Assembly (NCBI RefSeq): GCF_000019665.1
Contig: NC_010794.1
Location: 1,798,001-1,862,000, forward strand
DNA length: 64,000 nucleotides
Reading direction: 5' to 3'
Origin: Methylacidiphilum infernorum V4
GTDB taxonomy: Bacteria > Verrucomicrobiota > Verrucomicrobiia > Methylacidiphilales > Methylacidiphilaceae
The translations under genes were made by a program, and so were the position numbers. Below the pieces are notes generated by a model that was not told the origin of the DNA, did not search any database, and worked only from the letters and a program-made list of their open reading frames with translations. Position 1 is the stretch's first letter; each line of letters starts with the position of its first letter. Positions 20,324-36,021 of the stretch are shown piece after piece.

Positions 20324-21124
20324 TTAGGGATGGGCTACTTCGGCAACAACCTTTTTGTCCGCAGGGCCGTTAACTGCATTCATTTCAGCCATCTGCTTAA
20401 GCCAACTGTTATATTCTTCAGGGGATTCAACAACCAAGTAGCCTTTCATGGCAAAATGACCGACTCCACAAAGCTGACCGCAGGCAATCTCAAACCGGCC
20501 CGTTTTAATCGGCGTAAACCACAAGGGAATGGTCAACCCGGGGATGGCGTCTCTTTGTATACGCATCTGGATAATATAAAAATTGTGGACGACATCTTTA
20601 GATCCGATCTGGACTAAAAGAGGCTTCCCCACGGGAGCATGCATTTCATTCATGGTCACGATATCATCCTTCGATGCGGGATCAGTTTTATCCAATCCAA
20701 TGGGATTCATCGGATCGATCAAGTAATTGTCTCTTCTCCCCAGTTTCCCATCCGCTCCTGGATAATGGAAGAGCCATCCAAATTGTTGAGCTATGGCTTC
20801 CACGACGATCGCCTCGGAGACGGAGGGAGGATTTAAAACCCTCTTTCCCCATAAGGGGATTGAAAAGCCAAAAAGCAAGACCATTTCGACAAAGATTACC
20901 CCCCATTCCAGGTGCTTAGGCCAATCCGCTTTCAGTCCTTCGTAACTGGCGTTGGGATTTCTTTTCTTTGAAAATTTAAAAAGAGAGTACACGAAAAAAG
21001 AGGACCAGATCATAAAAAGGATGAGCATAAACCAAAGAATCAATTCTAGGAATTGATCAACCTGGTGTCCATGTTCGGCAGCATTGGGAGAAATCCCCGT
21101 CAGTTCGAGTAAAAGTGCAATCAT
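20324..21124 (-). CDS. coxB: Cytochrome c oxidase subunit II
   Basis: CoxB accepts electrons from a c-type cytochrome through the binuclear CuA centre. The 266-residue protein has two membrane segments (about residues 25-50 and 70-90) and a periplasmic cupredoxin domain. The CuA motif 'CGQLCGVGHFAMKG' (CxxxCxxxHxxM) is near the C-terminus, and 'HNFYIIQMRIQRDAIPG' carries the first CuA histidine. It ends after the cupredoxin domain, so no cytochrome c is fused to it as in caa3 enzymes. Separate cytochromes encoded just upstream could donate electrons instead. Unusually, it is at the far end of the operon, separated from coxA and coxC by four small genes. Confidence 0.95.
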   Translation of the reverse strand: MIALLLELTGISPNAAEHGHQVDQFLELILWFMLILFMIWSSFFVYSLFKFSKKRNPNASYEGLKADWPKHLEWGVIFVEMVLLFGFSIPLWGKRVLNPPSVSEAIVVEAIAQQFGWLFHYPGADGKLGRRDNYLIDPMNPIGLDKTDPASKDDIVTMNEMHAPVGKPLLVQIGSKDVVHNFYIIQMRIQRDAIPGLTIPLWFTPIKTGRFEIACGQLCGVGHFAMKGYLVVESPEEYNSWLKQMAEMNAVNGPADKKVVAEVAHP

Positions 21125-22021: not shown

Positions 22022-22327
22022 TTATTTTCCAATAGAATCGAAATACGAAGCAACCAATAATAAAAATAAAGCCAAGACAAAAAGCACTGCAAGGCCTATA
22101 AGTTGATGGATCGTCTTTTTTTCCCAAAACATGTGCATCAGGATACCCAAGGCTAAAAGGGCCTGGACCCCTGCAATAATCAGTCCAGCCGCTATGTTCC
22201 CTCCGCCTAAATGAAGATAGGAGACCGCCACGTTGACTATCGCTAAAACAACCAAAAAGCCAAAAACGATAAAATAGGACTTAATTCGCTTTTTTTCCTC
22301 GTGTATTTCTTCACTCATGGAACTCAA
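22022..22327 (-). CDS. Cytochrome c oxidase subunit IV family protein
   Basis: A 101-residue protein with three hydrophobic segments and the 'LLALGILMHMFWEKKTI' pattern typical of the small fourth subunit (CoxD/CyoD-like) of bacterial heme-copper oxidases. The 'FLVVLAIVNVAVSYLHLGGG' segment lies before it. The subunit is thought to stabilise the CuB site region and has no cofactor. It is located 38 bases after coxC. Confidence 0.82.
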   Translation of the reverse strand: MSSMSEEIHEEKKRIKSYFIVFGFLVVLAIVNVAVSYLHLGGGNIAAGLIIAGVQALLALGILMHMFWEKKTIHQLIGLAVLFVLALFLLLVASYFDSIGK

Positions 22328-22365: not shown

Positions 22366-23157
22366 CTAAAAGAGATAAAGGGTGGGGAAAAGAAAGATCC
22401 ATACCAGATCGACAAAATGCCAGAAAAGACCGGCAACCTCCACCCTGTTTGCCAAGTGTTCCGGATTGGTGCGGTAAAGGGAAGCACCCGGCCCCCAGAA
22501 ATAGCCCAAAACGAGAAGCCCCCCGAGAATGTGGAGGGCATGGATGCCCGTCATCGTAAAATAAGTGGCTAAATAAGTATTGTACTTGGGCACAAAGTTC
22601 GACCACCAACGGATCTCGCTCTTGGGAATCTCCAAGACCTTCTCTTCAGCCTCGGGCTTGGAAAATATGGATTTAAGCTGGTAAATAAAATCTCCGGCAT
22701 TTTCAGGATCAGGTTTGATTTTCAAAACATCCGAGCGGACGGCTTCTTCTTCGCTCATGGCTAGGTGACCCGTTATTTCCTGGCCGGTTTTAAGAATAAC
22801 CCCATAGTGATGAAACTTATCCTTGTATTCTACCGATTTGACACTGAGAAACAAAACGCCACAAAAAAGGGTAACCCCTAACCACTGCCTATATTTAGCA
22901 AATTCCCGCATTTTCAGTGAAGCCCATGCCAAGACCATGGTGATACTTGAACTAATAAGCACCATTATATTAAAAAGCCCCATCGGCACATTGAGGATAT
23001 GGTGGGGCCAATGCGATGCTCCAAGCCTTAAAAATATATAGGCTGAAAAGAGCCCTCCAAAAAGCATGACTTCCGATGCCAAGAACAACCATATGCCGAC
23101 CTTTGCATTATAAAGGCCGGTATCAGGCCTTGCTGTAACTGTATAAGGAATCTCCAT
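22366..23157 (-). CDS. coxC: Cytochrome c oxidase subunit III
   Basis: A 263-residue seven-helix subunit III homologue, without cofactors, which supports proton uptake and stability of the oxidase. Recognisable parts are 'KVGIWLFLASEVMLFGGLF', 'SVEYKDKFHHYGV', and 'TMTGIHALHILGGLLVLGYF', with the terminal 'YWHFVD'-like segment here reading 'GLFWHFVDLVWIFLF'. An unusually long hydrophilic loop, about residues 118-192, separates the central helices; canonical proteins have only a short loop there. The gene lies between coxA (45 bases) and the subunit IV gene. Confidence 0.93.
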   Translation of the reverse strand: MEIPYTVTARPDTGLYNAKVGIWLFLASEVMLFGGLFSAYIFLRLGASHWPHHILNVPMGLFNIMVLISSSITMVLAWASLKMREFAKYRQWLGVTLFCGVLFLSVKSVEYKDKFHHYGVILKTGQEITGHLAMSEEEAVRSDVLKIKPDPENAGDFIYQLKSIFSKPEAEEKVLEIPKSEIRWWSNFVPKYNTYLATYFTMTGIHALHILGGLLVLGYFWGPGASLYRTNPEHLANRVEVAGLFWHFVDLVWIFLFPTLYLF

Positions 23158-23202: not shown

Positions 23203-25050
23203 TTAAGAAGGAAGCTGGGATAATTTTCCTTCTTTTTTTAATCTTTCCTCTGGTTCCCATTGCGGTAAATAATCCTGTTTGTACCCCGGGACACTATACT
23301 CATAGGGATCCCGATAAACCGCTACCGGATGCAGAAAATTGCCGTGCCCGGGAGGCGTAGGAGTAGCCCACTCAAGGGTAGTCGCCTGCCAAGGATTATC
23401 ATCGGTTACCTTTTTCCCTGCCCACAAGCTCCAGAAGAAATTGATAATAAAGGGGATCTGGGCAACCGCTAAAGCCCAAGCCGAAAAGCTCATCACGTTG
23501 TTCAGCCAAAGTACATTCTGGGCCATCTGCCAGCCCGCACCTCCATCATACCACCTCCTATGAACCCCGGCAAAACCTTGAACGAGCATGGGAAAGAATA
23601 TCCCGTTAAAGAAAATGACCGTCGGCCAAAAATGGAGTTTGCCTAAGAATTCGTTCATGGTCCTGCCCGTGGCTTTTGGAAACCAGTAATAAATACCTGC
23701 AAAAAGGGCGAGCAGGGAGGCCGGAGCCATCATGTAATGGAAATGACCAATGACGTAATAAGTATCATGCAGCACAACGTCGGAGGCCGTCCAACCCAGG
23801 GGTAATCCCGTCAAGCCTCCTATTCCAAACATGGGAAGCCATGCCAGGGCAAAAAGCATCGGGACATTAAATCGGATAGAAGCCCCCCACAGGGAGAGGA
23901 GGAGAACCGTGCCCAAAAGAACGGATGGGATGGAGATGATGGTCGTAAAAATCTGGAAAAATGAAGTAACGGCCTGGCCCATTCCCGTCATGTACATGTG
24001 GTGAGCCCAAACGACCATGGATAGAAAGCCGATAGCCAGGAGTGAATAAACAAAAACCTTGTAGCTCCAGAGTGGTTTGCGGGTATTGTTGGCAAAGATC
24101 TCACCCACGATCCCCATGGTAGGCAGAATCTGAACGTAAACTTCCGGATGTCCTAAAAACCAGAAAAGATGTTGCCAAAGGATGGAAGATCCCCCTCCGC
24201 TGATATCCGCATGCTTGCCGTTGACAATCAATCCTTCAGGAGAAAAGAAACTCGTTCCAAAAAGTCGATCCATCAGTTGCATAATCGCCGCCGATTCCAA
24301 GGGAGGAAAAGCCAGGAGCAATAGAAAAGCCGTAACGAGTTCACTCCAAACAAAAACGGGTAACCTCATCCAGCTTAGCCCCTTGGTTCTCAATTGAATA
24401 ATGGTCGTAATGATGTTGACGGATCCCAGCAAACTCCCGGTAATGTTAAAGGCCATCCCGATGAGCCACAAGGTTTGTCCGTTGAAAATGGGGTGAAAAC
24501 CCGGCCCCATATCCGCAAAATCGGCAAGCGGGGTATAGGATGTCCATCCCGACTTCGCCGCCCCCCCGGGAACAAAAAAACTCACCATCATGATGACAAC
24601 CCCGACGAAAAACAGCCAAAAGCTGGCCATGTTCAGCCTAGGGAAAGCCATGTCGGGAGCACCGATCTGAAGGGGAACGACAAAATTGCCAAATCCAGCA
24701 AAAAGAGCCGGTACAAGCGCCATGAAAATCATCATCGTTCCATGCATGGCTCCAAAAGAATTATACAACTGGGGTGTCATTACCCCCCCGGGAGCCATGG
24801 ATGACCCAAGGAGTTTCTCCAGTACAGGCCCGAAAACGGGTATCGGTTTGCCGGGGAAAGAAAGCTGCCAGCGCATCAATACCATGAGGAAAAATGCAAA
24901 TAGGGCCACGAAAAGAGAAGTAACCATGTATTGGTAGCCGATCATCTTGTGATCGGTGGAAAAAACATACTTTCTTATCCAAGGAATTTCCTCGTGTTCC
25001 TCATGAAGGCCATGGGCTGCAGGTGAAGTCATCGACATTTCAGAATCCAT
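23203..25050 (-). CDS. coxA: Cytochrome c oxidase subunit I (A1-type heme-copper oxidase)
   Basis: The catalytic subunit that reduces O2 at the heme a3-CuB site and pumps protons. The 615-residue protein has about 12 helices. Ligands are visible: the low-spin heme histidine in 'GAMHGTMMIFM', the 'FLGHPEVY' motif (CuB histidine, the A1-type glutamate and the cross-linked tyrosine), 'VWAHHMY' (two CuB histidines), and 'IGHFHYMM' (heme a3 and heme a). The acidic and asparagine residues of the D-channel region, 'GFGNFVVPLQIGAPDMAFPRLN' (read in two parts), are present. It starts a second cluster of cox genes, 132 bases after the cytochrome c gene. Confidence 0.97.
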   Translation of the reverse strand: MDSEMSMTSPAAHGLHEEHEEIPWIRKYVFSTDHKMIGYQYMVTSLFVALFAFFLMVLMRWQLSFPGKPIPVFGPVLEKLLGSSMAPGGVMTPQLYNSFGAMHGTMMIFMALVPALFAGFGNFVVPLQIGAPDMAFPRLNMASFWLFFVGVVIMMVSFFVPGGAAKSGWTSYTPLADFADMGPGFHPIFNGQTLWLIGMAFNITGSLLGSVNIITTIIQLRTKGLSWMRLPVFVWSELVTAFLLLLAFPPLESAAIMQLMDRLFGTSFFSPEGLIVNGKHADISGGGSSILWQHLFWFLGHPEVYVQILPTMGIVGEIFANNTRKPLWSYKVFVYSLLAIGFLSMVVWAHHMYMTGMGQAVTSFFQIFTTIISIPSVLLGTVLLLSLWGASIRFNVPMLFALAWLPMFGIGGLTGLPLGWTASDVVLHDTYYVIGHFHYMMAPASLLALFAGIYYWFPKATGRTMNEFLGKLHFWPTVIFFNGIFFPMLVQGFAGVHRRWYDGGAGWQMAQNVLWLNNVMSFSAWALAVAQIPFIINFFWSLWAGKKVTDDNPWQATTLEWATPTPPGHGNFLHPVAVYRDPYEYSVPGYKQDYLPQWEPEERLKKEGKLSQLPS

Positions 25051-25182: not shown

Positions 25183-25827
25183 TTAATTTCCTACTTGAGA
25201 AAGCTCCTCGACGGTCCATGACCCCTCTTTTTTCCCATATTTTTCCCTGAGTTGCTTGACCTCCATCTCCTCGACCTTATCCGCATGATTGCCCCAGGAG
25301 TTGCGTATGTAAGTCATCACCGCTGCCAATTTCGCATCATTCAAAGCCGTTTTCCATCCCGGCATCACCCCGTTATAGCTTGAGCCGTTGATCTTTAACT
25401 GCCCGGAAAGCCCGTTCAGTAAAATGGCTCCTAGCCTAGACTTGCTGCCTACGACATATTCGGAGTTTGCAAGGGGTGGATATTGACCGGGCATACCCAT
25501 GCCATTTTGCTGGTGGCAAGCCGAACACATCGCTTGGTATTGTTCCCGGCCTATTTCCATGGGATCGGTCTTGGCTTCGGCGGTGGTTGTTTTGGGCTCC
25601 TCCTTGGGTTTCTCCTTGGCCACATAGCCCCAAAACAAGTTTCCGGAGTCAAAAACATTGTTCTGCCATCTCCCCGTTTCAAACACCAAGATATAAAGGG
25701 AGAGTAGAAAAGCCAGAAAAGAGAAAAGCAAAAACCACCGAGGGACTTTATCTTGTCGGCTTTTTGCTGGGTCTCCTTCCCTCGTTCCACTACCTATAAT
25801 TTGAGTATTTTCTTCCCTTTCATTCAT
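25183..25827 (-). CDS. Membrane-anchored monoheme cytochrome c
   Basis: A 214-residue protein with an N-terminal cytoplasmic tail, one membrane segment (about residues 30-50), a charged linker and a class I cytochrome c domain. The heme motif CSACH is at about residue 100, followed by 'QQNGMGMPGQYPPLANSEYV' and a distal methionine in 'YNGVMPGW'. It overlaps the CcoO-like gene by 4 bases (ATGA) and precedes coxA. It would sit in the periplasm facing CoxB, and could carry electrons to CuA, since CoxB lacks its own heme domain. That role is inferred from position. Confidence 0.88.
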   Translation of the reverse strand: MNEREENTQIIGSGTREGDPAKSRQDKVPRWFLLFSFLAFLLSLYILVFETGRWQNNVFDSGNLFWGYVAKEKPKEEPKTTTAEAKTDPMEIGREQYQAMCSACHQQNGMGMPGQYPPLANSEYVVGSKSRLGAILLNGLSGQLKINGSSYNGVMPGWKTALNDAKLAAVMTYIRNSWGNHADKVEEMEVKQLREKYGKKEGSWTVEELSQVGN

Positions 25828-26441
25828 GGTTTTTTTGCCTGGGTTTCGATCGCATAGGTCCTATCAAGGGAAAGTAAGTAAGCGACAAGGGCGATAGCTT
25901 CGGGGGAGGGTAAAACCTGGAGCTCGCTGGGAACGCCAGGGGTCAATTCCTGGGGCAGTGCTTCAGGATTCCTTTTGCCTTCTGCCCTGACCTTGCGAAA
26001 AAGATATCGATAGGGAGGCATGATGGTGCCAGGGAATATTTTGTCGGGATTATAAAGAAGAATATAAAACCAATGAGGGTCTTTCCTTCTTGTTCCAATA
26101 TTGGAAAGGTCAGAGCCCATTCTCACTATGCCTAGAAAAGGATTGCGTTCATGATAATAATCCACGGGCAGTGTCCTGCGACTTCCCCATCCCCTTGCAA
26201 TGTCTGAACCCATATTTGCCGGCCTGACCACTTGGGTATGACAACCCGAACAGCCGTTGGCTCCATAAATTCTTTGACCCGTTTTAACGAGTCCGAAATC
26301 GGGCGGAGGGGTTTCTTCTCCGCGGGGAGGAGTGTCCAAAACCTGGTTGGGAACAATCACGTAGACGATCCAGCCCAATATAAAGCAGCTTAAAATCCCC
26401 AACATCCAAAGAAACTGTCTAGCCATCGACTTTAATCCCAT
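25824..26441 (-). CDS. CcoO-like membrane cytochrome c
   Basis: A 205-residue single-pass membrane protein with one heme motif, 'GANGCSGCHTQVVRP', and the downstream 'PFLGIVRMGSDLSNIGTRRK', 'PHWFYILLYNP' and 'IMPPYRYLF' that characterise CcoO, the monoheme subunit of cbb3 oxidases. The distal ligand is probably the methionine of IMPPY. An alternative start is the ATG at 26426, five codons later; neither has a clear Shine-Dalgarno. It directly follows the CcoN-like gene, just as ccoO follows ccoN. Since that CcoN-like partner lacks its metal sites, this cytochrome probably works in electron transfer rather than in a separate cbb3 oxidase. Confidence 0.88.
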   Translation of the reverse strand: MGLKSMARQFLWMLGILSCFILGWIVYVIVPNQVLDTPPRGEETPPPDFGLVKTGQRIYGANGCSGCHTQVVRPANMGSDIARGWGSRRTLPVDYYHERNPFLGIVRMGSDLSNIGTRRKDPHWFYILLYNPDKIFPGTIMPPYRYLFRKVRAEGKRNPEALPQELTPGVPSELQVLPSPEAIALVAYLLSLDRTYAIETQAKKP

Positions 26442-26472: not shown

Positions 26473-27885
26473 TTATCCCCCTTTTTGCTCTCCCTCCTCC
26501 ACGGGCATCACAGCCATCAGCAGCAATAGAAAACAATAGGTCAGCTGCGAAAACAAGATTAGGGTGGCGGACATCCCCGCTCCTCTTAGGTAAGGCAATA
26601 CCGATTCAATAACTTGTGCAATCGGCAATTGGACATCTTGAAATTCAAAGCTCTGGACAAGTCCACCCAGGCATAAAAATACAAAGAGGAAGGTCATACC
26701 GTAGATGTTCGCCCAAAATGTAACCTTCAGGAGAGTTTCAGAAATCCACGGTTTTTGAAAAAAACTTGTAAAAAGGCCATGGGCCATCGCAAGTAATGCA
26801 AAAGAATAAAATCCATAGAGAAAGAGCACAAGAAAAGCTATTTCTACAAAACTAAAATGGGTAAATCGACTGACCAAGGGAAACGAAAGAAGTCCATCAC
26901 CCAAGACGGCGATGATAAAGCAGTAAAGGGCAATTAAATAATATCTCGATACTATAGGGGTAGAATGCACTTTCAGGGCTTCTTTAAGTTGCTGCCGCAG
27001 ATCAATGGTTATAGCCGTCGCGCCGACTAGAGCCAAAATCCTCGAAGCAATTCCCAATCCTACCATCCAGAGGGGAAAAGGACCACCGACAAGATGCGAA
27101 GCGCAAGCGAAATTCGAAAAAAAGAAAAACGCAACCAGCCCTCCCCAGGAAAGCCGCGAGGGGCGGAATTCCGCCCGCACCCTTTCAACGTAATCATAGA
27201 GCATCGCCAAGCCTACGGGGGCCAACCAGAGATGCAAAAACCCTTCATTAAACCACCACTCCATGCTTGCAAAAGAAACCCCTCGAATCACATCCCAATG
27301 AAAAAAGGCAAAAAGGCTGCCAATTGCCCAAGGGAACCAGAGTAAAGCAACGAGGAGATAGCAACCCGAAATTTTTCTTAAAAAAAGGCCTAAACCTAAC
27401 CCCTCCCTAACCAACCCATAAACCATGAAGAGGTAATTCAAAAGAAGTAAGAATAGAACAAAATCGGGCCAACCCGCCCACGAAAGAGAAGGGATATCCC
27501 CGGTCAGTACGGCCATCATACCGATAAAAAGGGACAGATTCCAAAAAATGGCCGAGGAAAGGAAGTAACCCTTTTCTCGAAAAGGGCTGCCTCCACTGCT
27601 GCCCACCAGATAAAGGCTAAAAGCCAGTCCTCCATTCATTCCCCATCCATAAGAAAAAACGAGAAAAGAAGCCAACTCTATGCGTCCAAAGGTCAGCCAT
27701 CCCCACGATCCAAGAAGGCTTGGAATCATGATCTTTCCCGCTCCAAGGAGGGCAAAACCCATGGATACCAGGAGCCAAAAAAAGGAGGCCATGAGCAGGA
27801 AGATAACGGCGCTCATAAAAGAGCTTCCGGAGGATATCTCTCCCTGCCCCTCTTTTTGTGCCACGAGCGATTTTAAAGAATTCAT
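26473..27885 (-). CDS. CcoN-like heme-copper oxidase homologue lacking cofactor ligands
   Basis: A 470-residue integral membrane protein with about 12 hydrophobic segments. Four stretches align without gaps to remembered CcoN (cbb3 subunit I) sequences, but the ligands differ. In 'LTFGRIELASFL' the low-spin heme histidine is Ser73. In 'WWFNEGFLHLW' the CuB histidine of WWYGHN is Glu214. In 'NFACASHLVGG' the HH pair is Ser263-His264. In 'RFTHFSFVEIAFLVLF' the HVH heme pair is Phe351 and Val353. Only one of six ligands survives, so O2 reduction is not possible by the usual chemistry. It is followed by a CcoO-like gene, so it may act as the membrane scaffold of that cytochrome within an ACIII-oxidase assembly. 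Confidence 0.75.
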   Translation of the reverse strand: MNSLKSLVAQKEGQGEISSGSSFMSAVIFLLMASFFWLLVSMGFALLGAGKIMIPSLLGSWGWLTFGRIELASFLVFSYGWGMNGGLAFSLYLVGSSGGSPFREKGYFLSSAIFWNLSLFIGMMAVLTGDIPSLSWAGWPDFVLFLLLLNYLFMVYGLVREGLGLGLFLRKISGCYLLVALLWFPWAIGSLFAFFHWDVIRGVSFASMEWWFNEGFLHLWLAPVGLAMLYDYVERVRAEFRPSRLSWGGLVAFFFFSNFACASHLVGGPFPLWMVGLGIASRILALVGATAITIDLRQQLKEALKVHSTPIVSRYYLIALYCFIIAVLGDGLLSFPLVSRFTHFSFVEIAFLVLFLYGFYSFALLAMAHGLFTSFFQKPWISETLLKVTFWANIYGMTFLFVFLCLGGLVQSFEFQDVQLPIAQVIESVLPYLRGAGMSATLILFSQLTYCFLLLLMAVMPVEEGEQKGG

Positions 27886-27912
27886 GGTTCTTTTGACTTC
27901 ATTCCCTGCTTT

Positions 27913-28290
27913 TTATTTTGGTTCTTGAGGCCGAGGTATACCGGGCAAATAAACCCCTGAAGCTTTAGGAGTTTTTGCCTTGTATTCCTTAACTATGCTT
28001 ACCATGGCCTCTTCTATGGGGACATGGACGATCCCCTTTTCCTTGTCAATCCATCCGTAAGAGGAAAGTCTTTTCCTTGCTTCGAGCTGTTCTCCTACGC
28101 GGATTTGTCTTATCTGTTCTGCTTCTTTCAGTTCTTCTGTCTTTTGCTTATGGATGATCGAAAAGGCATAAAAAGAAGAAAATACAAAGCCGGATAAAAA
28201 AATACAAAGGAGGGTACCTCCCCACAGCGGATAGGAAGAAGACAATATTGTTTTTTGATTTTCTTTTTTCGTCTCTTCTTGGATATTCAT
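27913..28290 (-). CDS. Small single-pass membrane protein of the ACIII cluster
   Basis: A 125-residue protein with one hydrophobic segment (about residues 20-45), an amphipathic charged stretch likely to form a coiled coil (residues 47-75), and the C-terminal motif 'YGWIDKEKGIVHVPIEEAM'. That last motif resembles one seen in small proteins found beside ACIII and oxidase genes in other phyla, but I cannot name a family. It begins 11 bases after actF and ends 27 bases before the CcoN-like gene, so it is co-transcribed. It may be a linker or accessory subunit. Confidence 0.65.
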   Translation of the reverse strand: MNIQEETKKENQKTILSSSYPLWGGTLLCIFLSGFVFSSFYAFSIIHKQKTEELKEAEQIRQIRVGEQLEARKRLSSYGWIDKEKGIVHVPIEEAMVSIVKEYKAKTPKASGVYLPGIPRPQEPK

Positions 28291-28301: not shown

Positions 28302-29504
28302 TCAATTATAAACTTCTATCGATTCCTGGAGTCTTGGATCATGAATTGGATAGAGGCAAACTTCAGCTGCCTTTTTGAGATAACCGGATAAAAATATAAG
28401 TCCCATGCCGATCAAGACGGACAGCTCCATCCAGCCAACCGCAAAATTTTGGCTCATTTCCATGGGCATCACAATCCAGTATAACTCTACTGCCTGCATA
28501 AAGAGCACCCAGCAAGCAACCAATCCCAAGAACTTTTCATTTTTTTTCGTGGACTGGGGAAGCAAAAAAAGAAAAGGCAGTGCAAATCTCCCCACAACCA
28601 ACAAAATAGAAACATAATACCAACCATCATTGTTTCTTCTTATAAAGAAATAAGTTTCCTCGGGAATATTGCCATACCAGATCAACATGTATTGACTGAA
28701 AGCCAGGTATGCCCATAGGGCGGTAAAAGCAAAAAGCAATTTCCCCAGTAAATGGTAATGTTCCTCGTTCATCTCTAAAAGATAGCCCCGCTTACGAAGA
28801 GAAAGCAGGATCAAAATCCAAAGGCTTAAGCTGGCCCCGGCTGCCCCACTGAAAAGGTAAAAAGCCCATACCGTTGAACTCCAACGAAAATCCAAGGACA
28901 TGGCCCAGTCAATGGCAAAAAAAGTGAAAAGAAAACCAAAAAACACCGCAACGGGATAGGCAAGTCGTTTCAATCTCAAGGAATGATAAGGATTGCCGTC
29001 TTCGTCCTGGACACAGGATAACCTGCGGAAAAACCAGCTTACAAAACCGAAAAAACAAAAATAAACGCAAGCCCTGAGGCAAAAAAAGGGAACGTTGAGA
29101 TAAGCGGATTTTTCCATGTAATCCTTGAGTTTTTGAATCTCCGGCCGCGTCCATTCATAAAGGGTATGCGAAGAAAAAATATCGAGAAAGATCGGCAGAG
29201 AGAAAAGGATGACCAAGGGAAAAAGAGAAGCTACGTTTTCTACTTGCCTCCTCAGCAAGGTGTCCCAACCTGCATTGGTGACATAATGAAGAAGGACCCA
29301 AAAAAAAGAGCCGACGCACAGTCCAAAATAAAACAAAAAAGAGAAAAGCCAGGCATGGAAAAATTCAGAGCTGTTTACAATCAACCCCAACAGGGAGGCC
29401 AAAAGAAGAACGATTCCCGAAATTCCAAAAGTCCATACGAACCTTTTAAGCTTCTCCCTAGGAAGCATGTTTTGATTAAGGGCATGAAGCCTGGAATTAT
29501 TCAC
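28302..29504 (-). CDS. actF: Alternative complex III subunit ActF
   Basis: ActF is an integral membrane subunit related to ActC, with about 10 helices and no cofactor. The visible pattern includes 'TFFAIDWAMSLDFRWSSTVW' in the middle, conserved in this family. A longer open frame extends to 29606, but the GTG at 29504 is preceded by AAAGGAGG at good spacing and overlaps the actE stop as GTGA, so translation very likely starts there, giving 400 residues. It ends the core actABCDEF order. Confidence 0.88.
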   Translation of the reverse strand: MNNSRLHALNQNMLPREKLKRFVWTFGISGIVLLLASLLGLIVNSSEFFHAWLFSFLFYFGLCVGSFFWVLLHYVTNAGWDTLLRRQVENVASLFPLVILFSLPIFLDIFSSHTLYEWTRPEIQKLKDYMEKSAYLNVPFFCLRACVYFCFFGFVSWFFRRLSCVQDEDGNPYHSLRLKRLAYPVAVFFGFLFTFFAIDWAMSLDFRWSSTVWAFYLFSGAAGASLSLWILILLSLRKRGYLLEMNEEHYHLLGKLLFAFTALWAYLAFSQYMLIWYGNIPEETYFFIRRNNDGWYYVSILLVVGRFALPFLFLLPQSTKKNEKFLGLVACWVLFMQAVELYWIVMPMEMSQNFAVGWMELSVLIGMGLIFLSGYLKKAAEVCLYPIHDPRLQESIEVYN

Positions 29505-30118
29505 GGATTTGCCTCCTTTAACAGCCGTTTTTGTTCTTCGGATAATTCTCCAAGAGGGACATTTTGACTTTTTTGCAAGGCCCTTATATAGGCCACTATA
29601 GCCCACCTCTCTTCAAGGGACAAATTGGCCCCATATCCCAACATCATCCCCTGTCCATGGGTAATGATATAAAAGAGCTGGCCATCGGGCATCTGCCGGG
29701 TATGATCTTGATGGTAGTTAGGAACACCAAAAAGATTGAAATGGGTAGCGATCCCATTGCCATAGCCGGCCAAACCATGACAGGCCGAACAATAAATCTC
29801 GAATCTCTCTTTGCCCATTCTCAGGGTATCCATCGAAACTTCGAGCGGAATACCCTCCCCCCATTGATCACCAATAATCCCTGTAGAAAAATAAGGGTTT
29901 TCAACGGGCTCTTCCCAGCACACCGTGCCCGCTACGGGCATTCTTGAAGCCCTTCCGTCAGGGAAAAACACGCTTGGGGCCTGCTCCTTGACCTTGAGTT
30001 GCCTGACCATATCAGGAAAAATTTCTAGGGGAGGACGCCGGCTTTTTGTTCCTCTCAATCCCGCCGTAGCTACCACAGTAATAACCAAAAGAAAGCAAAT
30101 AAAAAAGAAATTTCGCAT
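29501..30118 (-). CDS. actE: Alternative complex III cytochrome c subunit ActE
   Basis: A 205-residue protein with an N-terminal signal or anchor segment (residues 3-20) and a single heme motif, 'EIYCSACHGLAGYGNG'. 'GEGIPLEVSMDTLRMGKERF' before it and 'FYIITHGQGMMLGYG' after it, the latter with the distal methionine, are typical of ActE. ActE is the monoheme subunit that receives electrons from the pentaheme ActA in known ACIII enzymes. It overlaps actF by 4 bases. Confidence 0.9.
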   Translation of the reverse strand: MRNFFFICFLLVITVVATAGLRGTKSRRPPLEIFPDMVRQLKVKEQAPSVFFPDGRASRMPVAGTVCWEEPVENPYFSTGIIGDQWGEGIPLEVSMDTLRMGKERFEIYCSACHGLAGYGNGIATHFNLFGVPNYHQDHTRQMPDGQLFYIITHGQGMMLGYGANLSLEERWAIVAYIRALQKSQNVPLGELSEEQKRLLKEANP

Positions 30119-30136: not shown

Positions 30137-30736
30137 TTATCTTGGAACCATCACCACCTCTTCAGCACCCAGCTCTTTTAACAGCAATCTTGTTTTCTCT
30201 TCTGAAAAAAGGGGATCGACGTTCTCCACAACCAAGAAAAACCGGTCATCCAACCCTTTTCGTGCAAGTTTTTCCCAATTCCATACCGATTTGTAAACCG
30301 AAGGCATGCCCGACAAAAGAAACACCCCCATAACCGTGCTAAAGGAGGCGAAAAGAATCGTCATCTCGATGAGCACGGGGACAAAAGCTTGAAATCCTAG
30401 ATAAGGTTTGCCTTGGACAACTAGGGGATAAAAAAGCCCTTGGAGATGACTGCTCAAGACTTCCTTAAAAAAAGCGGGTCTGGGAGCCGAAATGGTTGTT
30501 ACCATGACCAAGGCGATACTGAGTCCGATTACTCCTCCAATCAAGCTAAACAAAGAAACTTTTGATTTCCCAAGTCCCCTAGCCTCGGCCATGCCATGGA
30601 TGGGGAAGGGAGAATAGGCTTCCCAGCGGGTATATCCCAACTTTTTCAGTTCTAGAGCAGCAGCCTTCAACTTGGCGGCGGAGTCAAATTCCGCCCCCAG
30701 GCCGTAAATATCACCGGATAGCTGTTCATCCTTCAT
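30137..30736 (-). CDS. actD: Alternative complex III subunit ActD (DUF3341)
   Basis: ActD anchors the peripheral domain and has two membrane helices. Here they lie in 'VSLFSLIGGVIGLSIALVMV' and 'PVLIEMTILFASFSTVMGVF'. The N-terminal soluble part contains 'AAALELKKLGYTRWEAYSPF' and 'PIHGM', the DUF3341 signature. The frame opens at 30781, but the ATG at 30736 has a strong GGAGGAG sequence six bases upstream. It overlaps actC by 11 bases, so I start there (199 residues). Confidence 0.9.
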   Translation of the reverse strand: MKDEQLSGDIYGLGAEFDSAAKLKAAALELKKLGYTRWEAYSPFPIHGMAEARGLGKSKVSLFSLIGGVIGLSIALVMVTTISAPRPAFFKEVLSSHLQGLFYPLVVQGKPYLGFQAFVPVLIEMTILFASFSTVMGVFLLSGMPSVYKSVWNWEKLARKGLDDRFFLVVENVDPLFSEEKTRLLLKELGAEEVVMVPR

Positions 30737-32168
30737 AAACTCCTCCCCCAGGAGAATCCTTTTCCTTTCGTTCTTTTTCATAGACCAAAGTCTTCACTTC
30801 AGAAATGGCTATGACAGGGAAAAATCGTGTAAAAAGAAGAAACAATAAAAAGAAAAATCCCACCGTTCCTACAAACAGCCCAATGTCCACCCACGTGGGA
30901 TAATACATTCTCCAAGAACCGGGAAGAAAATCCCGGCTGAGAGCTGTAACGACAATGACAAAACGCTCGGCCCACATCCCCACATTGATCATCAGGGAGA
31001 GGATAAATACCGTCCACGGACTTAAGCGGATCCTTTTCAACCAAAAAAGTTGGGGCAAAAGAACATTAAAACCAAACATCAAAAAATAGGCGATCCCGTA
31101 AGGTCCAAAAATACGGTTCCAAAAAACATAGCGTTCGTAGACATTGGAGCTATACCACGCAGTGAAAAGCTCTATGATATAGGAATATCCAACCATAGAG
31201 CCGGTAGCCAACATGACCCGGGCCATGTTATCGATATGCTTGGGAGTGATGAGATCTTTAAGCTGTGGATACAATGCCCTGAGAGGAATTAACAAGGTAG
31301 CAATCATGGCAAAGCCGCTAAAGATAGCTCCCGTAATAAAATCGGGGGGAAAAATGGTTTCATGCCAACCGGGAAGAATGGTGGTTGCAAAATCCGTGGA
31401 GACCACGGAAGCCACGGAAACAACCAAGACGGTCGCAATGCCGCCAAGACACAAATAACCCAGTTCATAATTATGCCACTGGGCGGCCGATCCACTCCAT
31501 CCCCAGCATAGAACATGATAAAGTCTCTTTTTCCACCGTTTTTCAGCTCTATCTCGCAAGACAGCGATATCGGGAATAAGCCCAAAGTACCAGAACAAGC
31601 AGGAAACGGTAAAATAAGTGCCGACAGCAAATTCATCCCAGAGCAAAGCGGCCCTGAAATTTTGCCAGACCGCATAGGATTCAGGTACCGGAACAAGGTA
31701 CCAGAACATCCACTGCCTACCTATGTGAAAGAGAGGGAATACCGCTGCGCAAAGGACCGAGAAGATAGTCATCGCCTCTGCTGCCCTATTGATCGAATTT
31801 CTCCACTTCTGCCGGGTAAGCAACAAGATGGCCGAGATCAGGGTTCCCGCATGGCCGATTTCAATCCAAAAAACAAAATTGAGAATGGCCAATCCCCAAA
31901 ACACCGGGCTATTCAGTCCCCATACCCCAAGACCGGTACTGATAAAATAAACGATCGTTACGGGTAGAAAAAGCGAAAGAACGAGGGCAATGATAAGGGC
32001 TATCCACCACTGCGGCTTGGCCGGCTCCTCAACAATAGAACAGACCGCGTCGGTTATCCAACCGTAATTTCTGTCGTTTAAAACAAGAGGCTCTCTTTTG
32101 AGTTCCTGGAGTACTCGCTCTTTCTGTTCTTCGGTCAACCGGCCCGGTAAAGTCGATTTGCTTATCAT
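30726..32168 (-). CDS. actC: Alternative complex III subunit ActC (NrfD/PsrC family)
   Basis: A 480-residue integral membrane protein of about 10 helices. It contains 'FWIEIGHAGTLISAILLLTR' with the conserved histidine near the quinol site, 'NSINRAAEAMTIFSVLCAAV', 'WDEFAVGTYFTVSCLFWYFG' and 'SYIIELFTAWYSSN', all typical of ActC. In solved ACIII structures ActC holds the quinol-binding pocket next to the iron-sulfur protein ActB. The start codon overlaps the actB stop as ATGA. Confidence 0.93.
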   Translation of the reverse strand: MISKSTLPGRLTEEQKERVLQELKREPLVLNDRNYGWITDAVCSIVEEPAKPQWWIALIIALVLSLFLPVTIVYFISTGLGVWGLNSPVFWGLAILNFVFWIEIGHAGTLISAILLLTRQKWRNSINRAAEAMTIFSVLCAAVFPLFHIGRQWMFWYLVPVPESYAVWQNFRAALLWDEFAVGTYFTVSCLFWYFGLIPDIAVLRDRAEKRWKKRLYHVLCWGWSGSAAQWHNYELGYLCLGGIATVLVVSVASVVSTDFATTILPGWHETIFPPDFITGAIFSGFAMIATLLIPLRALYPQLKDLITPKHIDNMARVMLATGSMVGYSYIIELFTAWYSSNVYERYVFWNRIFGPYGIAYFLMFGFNVLLPQLFWLKRIRLSPWTVFILSLMINVGMWAERFVIVVTALSRDFLPGSWRMYYPTWVDIGLFVGTVGFFFLLFLLFTRFFPVIAISEVKTLVYEKERKEKDSPGGGVYEG

Positions 32169-35100
32169 AGCTTTTCTTTTTCTCCATCACCGTTTCTAGA
32201 CACCATCGAAGGATTGGGATTGTTGATCCTTGCCAAATAAGTAATCCTTGGCCTCGTGTTTAACTCTTCCAAGATGCGAAAAGCTCTCTCATTCTTTTTC
32301 CATTTTGATACCGAACTCTGCGGATCGGCCAAATTGCCAAATATGATGGCTTCGGCGGGACAAGCAGCTTGGCAGGCGGTTTTAACCCTATCTGTAGGAA
32401 TCGGCTGGGGTAAAGATCCCTTGGCTTTCGCCAAAACCGCAATCTTGGCTTCTTCAATGCGTTGCACGCAAAAAGTACACTTCTCCATCACCCCCCTCAT
32501 TCTCACCGTAACATTGGGATTTCTTTGAAGTTGTATCGTCAAAGGAGAGCCTTGGTCTCCAAAAGGACCAAGATATAAATTACCTATTTCAAAAGGACCT
32601 ATTTTCTTTTTCTTGAGAACATCCCGCTTATTGTAATCAAAGAAATTGAATCTCCTCACCTTGTAAGGACAGTTGGCAGCACAGGCTCTTGTGCCGATAC
32701 AGCGGTTATAAACCATGACATTGAGTCCATCTTTACTATGAACCGTGGCATACACGGGGCAAACCGCCTCGCAAGGAGCATTCTCACATTGCTGGCAGAG
32801 CATAGGTTCAAAATAGAGCTGGGATCCTTCTTCATGGCCTTGGAAATAACTGTCTATCCTTATCCACTGCATAATCCGTCCACGCATAACCTGCCCCTTT
32901 CCCACGATCGGGATGTTGTTTTCGCTCTGGCAGGCAACAACACAGCTATTGCAGCCCACGCAGCTTCCCAAGTCGATCACCATCCCCCATTGATAAGGTC
33001 CACCCCACACTCCCCCGGTGTAAGCGGGTCCCTTCTCACGCTTATCCGAGTAGGGGTTTTGATATATGGACACCTCGGGAATGGCATCGGCTTCTCTCTT
33101 AGAGGCAAAATCGGGATGCTTGCGGTAATAATCCAGCGAAGCGATCTTGAATATCTCCCTCTCATGCATCTGCTGATGCTCCTGGGATTTAGCTAAAGGG
33201 TAAAAGAGGTTTGTCTTTTGAATCGTCAGGCCCTGGATCCACCAAAAATTTCGGCTTTGGGTTAAAGGATAAGCATTAAAACCAGCCCCTGCGGCCACTC
33301 TCAATTCTTGTTTTCTTCCGTAGCCGAGGGCAATGGATAGGGAATTGTCAGCATGGCCGGGAACAACAAGGACAGCCGCTTCGATCCATTTGTTTCCAGA
33401 CCCTATGCGCACCACTTCCGCTTTCTTTGAATCCTCGCTGCGCCCGTTTATTCCATAACGTTTAGCGGTGCCAGGACTCAGCAAAAGGGCGTTATCCCAA
33501 CATATCTTGGTTACAGCATCAGGCAGCTCCTGCAGCCAGCTGTTATTGGCCAAGCTTCCCTCATCCACTTTGGGACAAGGATAGAAAACAAGTTCCAATA
33601 CATCCGCATTGGATCCTTCGGTTTTACGGCCCTGGGCAAGCTCTTGGAGGATATCCCACTTGGGGAGAGAAGATACGGCAACAGGAGCAGACTCTTTATG
33701 GTACCCATCATGCAAAAGCCTTCTCCAACTGACATCCTTATCCGATGTCGCGGCGGGAAAAAGTTTAAAAAAAGTGTCCCGAACAAGCTGCAGGCCTACA
33801 GGCAGCGGAACAAAGGGTGGAGAACCCGCTACCTGGGGTTGGGCAATCATGGAAGGAGAAGAAGGTTCCGGCTCTTCGATAGCCTCCCACATCCCATTCA
33901 TGAAGGCCATAAGTTCCAATAAGCCGATGGAACCGAAGAGAGGTTCTATTAAAGGCTGCTGGCTGACATAAATGCCTTTTGAAGTTCTCGAATCTCCCCA
34001 CGATTCCAAGTAGTGGTTTAATGGAACATGCCAATCCGCGCAGGCGGCGGTTTCGTCATACAAAAGCCCAAAATGGATAACCGAAGGCAGGCTCCGCTGC
34101 AACCTAGGCCATTCCAGATCCCCGGGAGCATTATACACCGGGTTGGTCCCGATAATGACAAGCTCCTTTATCTCCTCTTTTTTTATCATTTCGCAAAGCT
34201 CTTCAAGGGATGCCCCCTCGGATTCGATCCCCGGAATGAAATGGATCGCTTTTCTTTGTCCAAAAGCCTCGTTGAGAGCAAAAACAATAATTTGCTCTCG
34301 GAGGGAGGCCATTCTATTGATAACGACAAGGGGAGCTTGAGCCGCATGCAGATCCCTAGCCAGCTCTTTTATCCACCGGGTTCGCTCCTCGCCCCAACCG
34401 GCGGGTAAACCAAAAGAAGCAACAAGGGGCTTCAGGCTGTCATATCCTCCTTGCTGGACCAAAAAATAACATAGAGAGAGCAAAAAGGATTCGAAATCGG
34501 AAACCTTCAAGGCAAGCCGGTGATCGGCCATGGAACCGGTAACGGTCAGTCGATTTTCAACGACGTAAAGACGGCTCATCAATCCATTCTTATCCTTGAG
34601 TTTCCTGGACCGGGCAAATCCACGAATGGATTCCACTCCTTCTTCACCCGCACAAAAATCGCATCCGAGGGAAAGAATCACATCGGCCTTCTCCCAATGA
34701 AAAACAGGAAAGAGAGAGGTGCCGTAAAAAAGTTTTAAGGCTTCATTTCTCCGGGCATTGCCGACAGGATCGTAAAATACAAAAGTCGATCGGGGACATT
34801 TTTCAACAAAATCCGCTTTAAGCCGATCGAAAGTAGGTGAAATAATCGGGACAGAAAGTATAGCCAACCCCGCTCCTTTTCGGTCGATATACTGCTGCAT
34901 TCTTTCTCTGAAAAAGGAGATGAACTCTTTTTTAGAAACCGTTTCCCCTTTTCGAATAATCCTTCCATCCCGATCAGGATCATAAAGATCAAGAATGGAA
35001 GCCTGGGTTTGCGTGCTTACGCCGTAGTCAGAAAAATGGGGGTTGGGATGAATGTGGGTGGGTCTGCCTTCATGCGATTCGACGAGAAGCGGCTCGGCCC

Positions 35101-35302
35101 CGTTACGGGTTTGCCTGGAGGTAGCATAAAAAGTGGCTTTCCCCGGAATAACCCACTCTGGACTATTGGTATAAGGAACGAGAAAAGCCTCGGGCCTGCG
35201 GCATCCCCCCGCGGTGATCGTCCCTGTGGCCATAGCGGCAGCGGATATGGTTTTTAAAAAAGTTCTCCGGTTCATTTTTCCCTTTCCTTTCAGCTCATCC
35301 AT
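32165..35302 (-). CDS. actB: Alternative complex III iron-sulfur subunit ActB
   Basis: A ~1045-residue fusion of a molybdopterin-oxidoreductase-like domain (without visible cofactor-binding signatures) and a C-terminal ferredoxin-like domain. The cluster motifs are CVGCNSCVVACQ, CQQCENAPCEAVCP, CIGTRACAANCP and CTFCVQRIEEA with CQAACPAEA, for several [4Fe-4S] and [3Fe-4S] centres. The N-terminus has a twin-arginine signal, NRRTFLKTIS, so it is exported folded. The frame opens at 35386, but the ATG at 35302 has an excellent GGAGGGGAG upstream and puts the Tat motif near the start, so I chose it. It oxidises quinol together with ActC and passes electrons to ActA. Confidence 0.94.
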   Translation of the reverse strand: MDELKGKGKMNRRTFLKTISAAAMATGTITAGGCRRPEAFLVPYTNSPEWVIPGKATFYATSRQTRNGAEPLLVESHEGRPTHIHPNPHFSDYGVSTQTQASILDLYDPDRDGRIIRKGETVSKKEFISFFRERMQQYIDRKGAGLAILSVPIISPTFDRLKADFVEKCPRSTFVFYDPVGNARRNEALKLFYGTSLFPVFHWEKADVILSLGCDFCAGEEGVESIRGFARSRKLKDKNGLMSRLYVVENRLTVTGSMADHRLALKVSDFESFLLSLCYFLVQQGGYDSLKPLVASFGLPAGWGEERTRWIKELARDLHAAQAPLVVINRMASLREQIIVFALNEAFGQRKAIHFIPGIESEGASLEELCEMIKKEEIKELVIIGTNPVYNAPGDLEWPRLQRSLPSVIHFGLLYDETAACADWHVPLNHYLESWGDSRTSKGIYVSQQPLIEPLFGSIGLLELMAFMNGMWEAIEEPEPSSPSMIAQPQVAGSPPFVPLPVGLQLVRDTFFKLFPAATSDKDVSWRRLLHDGYHKESAPVAVSSLPKWDILQELAQGRKTEGSNADVLELVFYPCPKVDEGSLANNSWLQELPDAVTKICWDNALLLSPGTAKRYGINGRSEDSKKAEVVRIGSGNKWIEAAVLVVPGHADNSLSIALGYGRKQELRVAAGAGFNAYPLTQSRNFWWIQGLTIQKTNLFYPLAKSQEHQQMHEREIFKIASLDYYRKHPDFASKREADAIPEVSIYQNPYSDKREKGPAYTGGVWGGPYQWGMVIDLGSCVGCNSCVVACQSENNIPIVGKGQVMRGRIMQWIRIDSYFQGHEEGSQLYFEPMLCQQCENAPCEAVCPVYATVHSKDGLNVMVYNRCIGTRACAANCPYKVRRFNFFDYNKRDVLKKKKIGPFEIGNLYLGPFGDQGSPLTIQLQRNPNVTVRMRGVMEKCTFCVQRIEEAKIAVLAKAKGSLPQPIPTDRVKTACQAACPAEAIIFGNLADPQSSVSKWKKNERAFRILEELNTRPRITYLARINNPNPSMVSRNGDGEKEKL

Positions 35303-35364
35303 GCTCCTCTCCCCTCCAAATATAGATTGATAAGAAATTATCCATCTCCTTAAATTACACGTTA

Positions 35365-36021
35365 TTACCTGTGGCAAGCATCGCAATTTTCCGGTGGATG
35401 TATTCCTCTTTCTTTTACCAGCGTTTTACCCATCTTGATTTGCTCTTTTCCTTCATCCTCCGGCCTCCAGTCCATATCGAATACCTTGTCTTGAGGTCTC
35501 ACAAAATACTCGGGATTTCTATGGCAATCCAGGCACCAGCTCATGCTCAAGGGCTTGTCATGGTAGACTTCCTTCATGCGGTTGACCTTTCCATGGCAGC
35601 TGACGCAGCTTACGCCCCTGTTGACGTGAGCGGAATGATCAAAATAAACGTAATCGGGAAGCTGGTGGATTCGCACCCATTTTATAGGCTTGCCCATTTC
35701 CCAGCTCTCTCTCAATGGAGCTAGTTTAGGGCTATCCATCTTGATCTGCCGATGACAGTTCATGCAGGTTTGGGTTGTAGGCAAGTTAGAAAAACCGCTT
35801 TTCTCTACATAACTATGGCAAAACCGGCAATCCAGGCCGAGCTGACTTGTATGCAAAGCATGATCGAAGGGAATAGGCTGGGTAGGCATATATCCAACCC
35901 GGGAATATTTAGGAGTAAAATAATAGCTGATGGCCAGGACAAAGAGAAATCCCAGGACCACGATACCCAAGACTATCTTAGGAGGCAAATCGTTGGAAGA
36001 ACGGCTGAAAAGGTTACCCAT
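35365..36021 (-). CDS. actA: Alternative complex III pentaheme cytochrome c subunit ActA
   Basis: A 218-residue protein with one N-terminal membrane anchor and five heme motifs: CRFCH, CMNCH, CVSCH, CLDCH and the terminal CDACH. This matches the pentaheme ActA that heads ACIII operons. It contains 'QPIPFDHALHTSQLGLDC' and 'YVYFDHSAHVNRGVSC', which carry distal histidines. It is the first gene of the respiratory cluster. The 142-base region between it and the tRNA gene must hold the main promoter; I see no clear Shine-Dalgarno before the ATG. Confidence 0.95.
   Translation of the reverse strand: MGNLFSRSSNDLPPKIVLGIVVLGFLFVLAISYYFTPKYSRVGYMPTQPIPFDHALHTSQLGLDCRFCHSYVEKSGFSNLPTTQTCMNCHRQIKMDSPKLAPLRESWEMGKPIKWVRIHQLPDYVYFDHSAHVNRGVSCVSCHGKVNRMKEVYHDKPLSMSWCLDCHRNPEYFVRPQDKVFDMDWRPEDEGKEQIKMGKTLVKERGIHPPENCDACHR

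Follow-up and report, generated by a model that had tools for sequence, protein, structure and literature searches.

Organization of the Locus

The window, by which we mean the whole stretch of 64,000 nucleotides that was analyzed (Methylacidiphilum infernorum V4, NC_010794.1, positions 1,798,001 to 1,862,000), contains on its minus strand a run of genes in the order ActA-ActB-ActC-ActD-ActE-ActF-X125-NL-OL-PL-CoxA-CoxC-CoxD-two small proteins-CoxB. The upstream part encodes ACIII, with the multiheme cytochrome c ActA (35365..36021), the Fe-S/molybdopterin-like ActB (32165..35386), the NrfD-like ActC (30726..32168), ActD (30137..30781; PF11821, 157 bits), the mono-heme cytochrome c ActE (29501..30118) and ActF (28302..29495), whose start we placed after ActE, the listed open reading frame extending to 29606. 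The downstream part encodes an aa3-type oxidase, namely subunit I with intact ligand motifs (CoxA, 23203..25050), subunit III (CoxC, 22366..23157), subunit IV (CoxD, 22022..22327) and subunit II, in which the CuA motif residues were recognized by eye (CoxB, 20324..21124). Spacing is tight, from -56 to 31 nt between neighbors from ActA to PL, with 132 nt separating PL from CoxA.

Four genes lie between ActF and CoxA. X125 (27913..28290) is a small conserved protein of unknown function, with one transmembrane helix by eye; it is present in 56 of the 71 loci, carries the motif YGW(V/I)D...P(I/L)(D/E).AM and matches no Pfam family above cut-off. It is followed, after a gap of 27 nt (27886..27912), by NL (26473..27885), a protein of 470 amino acids and 12 transmembrane helices which open reading frame, homology and structure identify as a CcoN homolog without five of the six heme and CuB ligands. 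The preliminary description of this gene had given no strand; like its neighbors it is read from the minus strand. OL (25824..26441) is a CcoO-like mono-heme cytochrome c (FixO, 64 bits) with the heme motif CSGCH and axial Met141, and PL (25183..25827) is a CcoP-like cytochrome c (Cytochrom_C, 41 bits) with CSACH and axial Met155. PL has one heme, whereas CcoP often has two. The heme c motifs of both proteins are intact in the window.

The locus is not uniform among relatives. In some families (loci L095, L096, L110 and L118) a cytochrome c occupies the place of X125 between ActF and NL, while in one Methylacidiphilum (L061, 10223-17144) an insertion of approximately 7 kb separates ActF from X125. 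Genes for nos have been reported within the ACIII cluster of M. caldifontis IT6 (PMC11102522).

NL Has the CcoN Fold but Lacks Five of Six Ligands

NL is recognized by the Pfam COX1 family with 51 bits (cut-off 34.8), and its sole sequence match in the PDB is the cbb3 subunit I of 9g6b (E 1.4e-5). A profile of 63 family sequences matches Pseudomonas stutzeri CcoN (3mk7) with E 4e-67. The NCBIfam ccoN model TIGR00780 does not match the window NL; its cut-off of 583 is also missed by ligand-complete members of the family, which score about 220 bits. The AlphaFold model of NL (pLDDT 92.3) superimposes on 3mk7 with Z 47.6 over 442 residues at 2.2 A. All top structural matches are CcoN (Z 46.4-47.9, 2.2-2.5 A, 442-448 residues), with NorB (Z around 42) and A-type oxidases (around 35) ranking below.

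When aligned to 9g6b, Ser73 of NL (codon at 27667..27669) occupies the site of the first histidine of the low-spin heme b, and Glu214 (27244..27246) that of a CuB histidine. Ser263-His264 (27094..27099) correspond to the CuB His-His pair, and Phe351 (26833..26835) and Val353 (26827..26829) to the last His-x-His, that is, to the heme b3 ligand and the second ligand of the low-spin heme b, respectively. Only one of the six sites is thus a histidine. The ligand columns agree between the alignments of the family profile to 9g6b and 3mk7 and the larger family alignments. The preliminary description had named the same six residues by comparison with a CcoN sequence, and both residues and comparison held. 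Fold prediction and structural matching, which it had proposed as a check, returned the CcoN fold. It had not mentioned a seventh replacement: at the site of the TM7 tyrosine, which C-type oxidases have cross-linked to a CuB histidine, NL carries Ser257 (27115..27117). The G-P-x-P motif after TM7, specific to the family, is present (Gly268, Pro269, Pro271, and Trp273 beyond it). Sequencing error or a pseudogene can be ruled out by the open frame and by replacements common to five Methylacidiphilum genomes. In Methylacidiphilaceae, the CuB site corresponding to Glu214 is always Glu or Asp and His264 is retained in all members examined. Sequence and comparison thus establish NL as a CcoN homolog with the CcoN fold that has lost its ligands and the TM7 tyrosine.

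One Gene Cluster in Two Ligand States

Of 60 genomes of the order, 47 contain an NL homolog, as do 84 of 289 genomes of the phylum, where the weakest matches include ordinary fused cbb3 oxidases. The search covered order and phylum, plus one contig search whose only match was Methylacidiphilum sp. Yel, and no other phyla; around most of the better homologs we retrieved about 19 kb of sequence. In all 62 family loci the act genes lie upstream and OL directly downstream. All six histidines are present in 22 sampled loci, and at least one is lost in 41, the window included. The ACIII-linked NL cluster therefore exists in two states across the class Verrucomicrobiae, ligand-complete and ligand-poor; the ligand-poor state recurs within a widespread family and is not an isolated oddity. 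The replacement sets are diverse (SESHFV, ADAHQT, SSSLTT, QQRHQQ, AHSRRW, HSQKFI, AGSALF and others); in 10 ligand-poor loci none of the six sites is a histidine, and the set AGSALF (L098) is without any acidic residue.

The CxxCH of OL is intact in 41/41 ligand-poor loci; it reads CxYCH in every ligand-complete cluster and is relaxed in ligand-poor ones. The axial Met of PL is kept in 40 of the 41 ligand-poor loci, and that of OL in 28, being replaced in 13 by Cys (L074-L077, L127, L095, L096, L110), His (L104, L119, L125), Arg (L086) or Ala (L116). Such replacements would be likely to shift the redox potential of the heme, an inference from sequence alone.

The ligand-complete members are probably O2 reductases. 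This is supported by one genome (G060) in which no heme-copper oxidase gene was found other than a ligand-complete NL. Activity is unproven, and even ligand-complete NL lacks, at the position aligned to residues 329-330 of the window protein, a glutamate that cbb3 oxidases are said to require (PMC5492636). Possibly, the ligand-complete ACIII-linked CcoN corresponds to the "unknown group" that PMC5492636 cites from Muntyan et al. 2015. Two further loci (L126, 7786-9843; L120, 1591-3648) carry a second, ligand-poor NL-OL pair (AHGDLT and AHRDLT) away from ACIII, divergent from another oxidase subunit I gene with a frame of 778 amino acids.

Loss of ccoS and the TM7 Tyrosine

CcoS is needed for active cbb3 oxidase: mutants without it assemble the enzyme fully, yet it is inactive (PMC5742617). 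Matches to the Pfam family FixS/CcoS (PF03597) occur in 17 of 22 ligand-complete genomes, directly upstream of NL, versus 0 of 44 ligand-poor ones; none of 11 Methylacidiphilaceae genomes was matched. A local ccoS profile, built from the ligand-complete clusters and also recovering ccoS beside three fused cbb3 oxidases from outside the family, places the gene immediately before NL in 22/22 ligand-complete clusters and in 0/41 ligand-poor ones. In most of the latter the corresponding gap has shrunk to tens of bases, and in the window the 27 nt between X125 and NL were read directly. The TM7 tyrosine follows the same division (22/22 versus 0/41). Across a tree of ActB plus ActC, ccoS and ligand state change together in 10 of 10 independent contrasts (p 0.002). 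The joint loss of ligands, tyrosine and ccoS, of which ccoS too was absent from the preliminary description, is what would be expected if the heme-copper site were no longer built. FixG/CcoG was considered as a second maturation marker and dropped as uninformative on NL, since it lies near a separate oxidase gene, a ccoN-like frame of 770-860 amino acids that is probably a fused CcoNO.

Selection on NL

Between V4 and its nearest relative, dN/dS is 0.09 for NL, 0.07 for OL, 0.05 for PL and 0.012 for CoxA. The value for NL was obtained at dS 1.37; only this nearest comparison is usable, distant ones being saturated, and dS of PL is high even here. NL is 80% identical to its homolog in L061, and CoxA 98%. 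Ligand-poor lineages have mainly lost the ligands and residues at further positions that never vary in complete members, while structural residues and the G-P-x-P-x-W loop are retained in nearly all of them, and the frame is open in the ACIII clusters examined. The low dN/dS argues that NL is functional and not decaying. NL thus meets the criterion for a pseudoenzyme, the loss of catalytic residues under purifying selection.

How Many Times Were the Ligands Lost?

A tree of ActB plus ActC requires 12 changes of ligand state (11 without the outgroup row), 10-11 of them forced by supported branches, and the AU test rejects the placement of all ligand-poor rows in one clade (p 8e-7). With OL plus PL there are 8 changes, 5 of them forced. 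We conclude that ligand loss was repeated, at least 3 times and very likely 5 to 11. The trees themselves give no direction; we take the regain of six ligands, a tyrosine and ccoS as implausible. Repeated loss of the metals with retention of the protein means that the remaining task of NL is independent of them.

A rival history has few losses, with one old ligand-poor NL allele lacking ccoS spread by recombination or by the sorting of paralogs. In its favor, 37 of the 41 ligand-poor rows fall together in the NL gene tree (support 93), which forces no more than 3 changes, also after conserved columns are removed. However, the branches of the rows so grouped are long, the likelihood of the NL tree rises when the ligand-poor and complete members of family f12 are kept together, and the Act and OL plus PL trees speak against it. 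We regard this scenario as unlikely; it concerns the history of NL and not its function.

Other Oxidases and Published cbb3 Assignments

V4 has five genes of the COX1 family: two A-type, one B-type-like, NorB and NL; NorBC is encoded too. One of these genes (L004) was considered as a true CcoN and refuted, a NorC-like upstream gene and NorB-like motifs identifying it as NorB. With a ccoN profile, no match above 46 bits was obtained in 13 Methylacidiphilaceae genomes, real ccoN in control genomes scoring 224-642; no intact CcoN was found elsewhere in the methanotroph genomes searched.

Verrucomicrobial methanotrophs have been credited with a cbb3 oxidase (PMC6688271, PMC8498564, PMC11102522, PMC10205796), located beside ACIII according to the first three of these, and one of these papers (PMC6688271) links it to the high affinity for O2 seen in strains SolV and Kam1. 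In the genome which we take to be that of Kam1 in PMC6688271 (G028), NL (L010) is ligand-poor. Since the NL of Methylacidiphilaceae is ligand-poor and no other intact CcoN was found, our results contradict these assignments. High-affinity O2 reduction must then occur elsewhere, for example in aa3, ba3 or methane monooxygenase. More broadly, about two thirds of the ACIII-linked CcoN genes in our sample are mislabeled when called "cbb3 oxidase". An A-type oxidase is present in 43 of 43 ligand-poor genomes other than G040; it is also present in most ligand-complete genomes, and so this evidence is merely permissive.

The Probable Partners of NL

The preliminary description had placed NL with a CcoO-like cytochrome between ACIII and aa3 genes, which held, PL being an addition, and had suggested surveying act and cox genes around homologs. 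The act genes precede NL in every family locus examined; cox genes, by contrast, adjoin only 26 of 62, some loci being cut by contig ends. Broken down by state, cox genes adjoin 21 of 40 ligand-poor and 5 of 22 ligand-complete loci, and on these counts cox adjacency was rejected as a clean explanation of ligand loss. Within Methylacidiphilaceae, aa3 genes directly follow in all NL-bearing clusters retrieved.

Two natural experiments bear on the partners. In one genome of the same family (G008; L142, 10193-13097), X125 is followed by CoxC without NL, OL, PL or the clustered CoxA between them, while ActA-F and CoxC/D/B are retained. Methylacidithermus PQ17 has been named as an exception to the three-oxidase set (PMC8498564). 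Two genomes of a different family lack ACIII, have a bc1-type cytochrome b and carry ActE-NL-OL-PL or NL-OL-PL as leftovers (L143, 7619-10315; L144, 8013-10179). Their NL is ligand-less and either truncated or frame-split, assembly error not being excluded. Both situations fit a module working between ACIII and an oxidase. Equally, G008 has ACIII without the module, and so such a relay is not essential everywhere.

A Ligand-Poor Oxidase Subunit as a Proposed Scaffold

We propose that NL is a former catalytic subunit of a C-type (cbb3) oxidase that would no longer bind heme b, heme b3 or CuB and, as far as sequence can tell, would be unable to reduce O2. It may have been retained as a 12-helix membrane platform carrying OL and PL, the three still being attached to ACIII, as presumably they were when they formed a working ACIII-linked cbb3 oxidase. 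Electrons would then pass from the ACIII hemes (ActA/ActE) through those of OL and PL to the CuA site of the aa3 oxidase. That the O2 site of NL is lost is well supported, the absence of O2 reductase activity and of heme b being inferred from sequence. Attachment to ACIII, the direction of electron flow and aa3 as the acceptor are likewise inferences. For the reading as a whole, a cofactor-free scaffold for two c-type cytochromes relaying electrons from ACIII to aa3, we suggest a probability of about 0.62, without biochemistry or a structure of the complex to draw on. The tight operon, the heme motifs kept in OL and PL, purifying selection, the presence of A-type oxidases, G008 and the ACIII-less genomes all support it. 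Some observations count against it: aa3 genes do not always adjoin, so electrons could go elsewhere, G008 keeps ACIII while doing without the module, and the replaced axial Met in OL indicates an unequally conserved heme site. Of the preliminary description, the claim that an oxidase catalytic subunit gave rise to a cofactor-free protein finds support in the fold, in the loss of ligands, tyrosine and ccoS, in selection and in the partners; the scaffold role remains an inference.

A bolder reading starts from an ACIII-linked cbb3 oxidase whose catalytic subunit became, some ten separate times, a cofactor-free bridge between ACIII and aa3, a proposal for which we see the balance of evidence as tipping neither way. 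If true, a dead oxidase with two c-type cytochromes would wire ACIII to a living aa3 oxidase.

Among alternatives, the best survivor keeps the relay scaffold and changes the acceptor, to a ba3 oxidase, NorBC, nitrous oxide reductase or the cytochromes of methanol oxidation. In about half of the ligand-poor clusters cox genes do not adjoin, one Methylacidiphilum has the 7 kb insertion, a published strain has nos genes in its ACIII cluster (PMC11102522), and V4 has a B-type-like oxidase and NorBC. Nevertheless, the constant position of aa3 genes after NL in Methylacidiphilaceae and the joint disappearance of module and clustered CoxA in G008 make this scenario unlikely. Next, NL could be a leftover, kept solely as a membrane partner stabilizing OL and PL without any role in electron transfer. 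Its fast evolution relative to CoxA, its lineage-specific replacements and its truncated or frame-split form in relatives without ACIII would fit; against this stand the dN/dS of 0.09, the open frame in ACIII clusters and the conserved structural positions and G-P-x-P-x-W loop, and we find it very unlikely. There is equally little to recommend an NL turned into an H+ or Na+ conducting subunit through the emptied proton-channel region: the pocket replacements are polar and Glu/Asp is conserved at the CuB site in Methylacidiphilaceae, but replacements are lineage-specific, some sets lack an acidic residue and no shared new motif was found. Binding of heme or another metal through new ligands, to which the retained His264 of Methylacidiphilaceae might point, is also most improbable given the absence of ccoS, the lack of a common replacement set and the 10 ligand-poor loci without any histidine at the six sites.

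Comparison with Known Systems

In the open-access literature searched, no prior report was found of a retained, ligand-less family of heme-copper oxidase subunit I. Nitrospina was considered as a precedent and set aside, as it has an odd residue near CuB and not a loss of ligands. With CcoN (3mk7, 9g6b, 6xkw), NL shares the full-length fold, the N-O-P subunit set and detectable homology; it differs in that the ligands are gone save His264 and that the TM7 tyrosine and ccoS are missing. The ACIII-linked C-type oxidase cluster of verrucomicrobial methanotrophs and Opitutaceae (PMC8498564, citing Refojo 2010) is, in V4, the NL locus itself. It was published as a working cbb3 oxidase, whereas the Methylacidiphilaceae version is without an O2 site and only some other Verrucomicrobiae keep one. 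The ACIII-aa3 supercomplex of Flavobacterium johnsoniae (PMC8552683) likewise combines ACIII and aa3, with electrons passing via c-type hemes, and is not known to contain a CcoN-like subunit. Finally, NrfD-like membrane subunits such as ActC (PMC8076601) are, like the scaffold we propose, cofactor-free and connect redox partners to the membrane but, unlike NL, are not of heme-copper oxidase descent.
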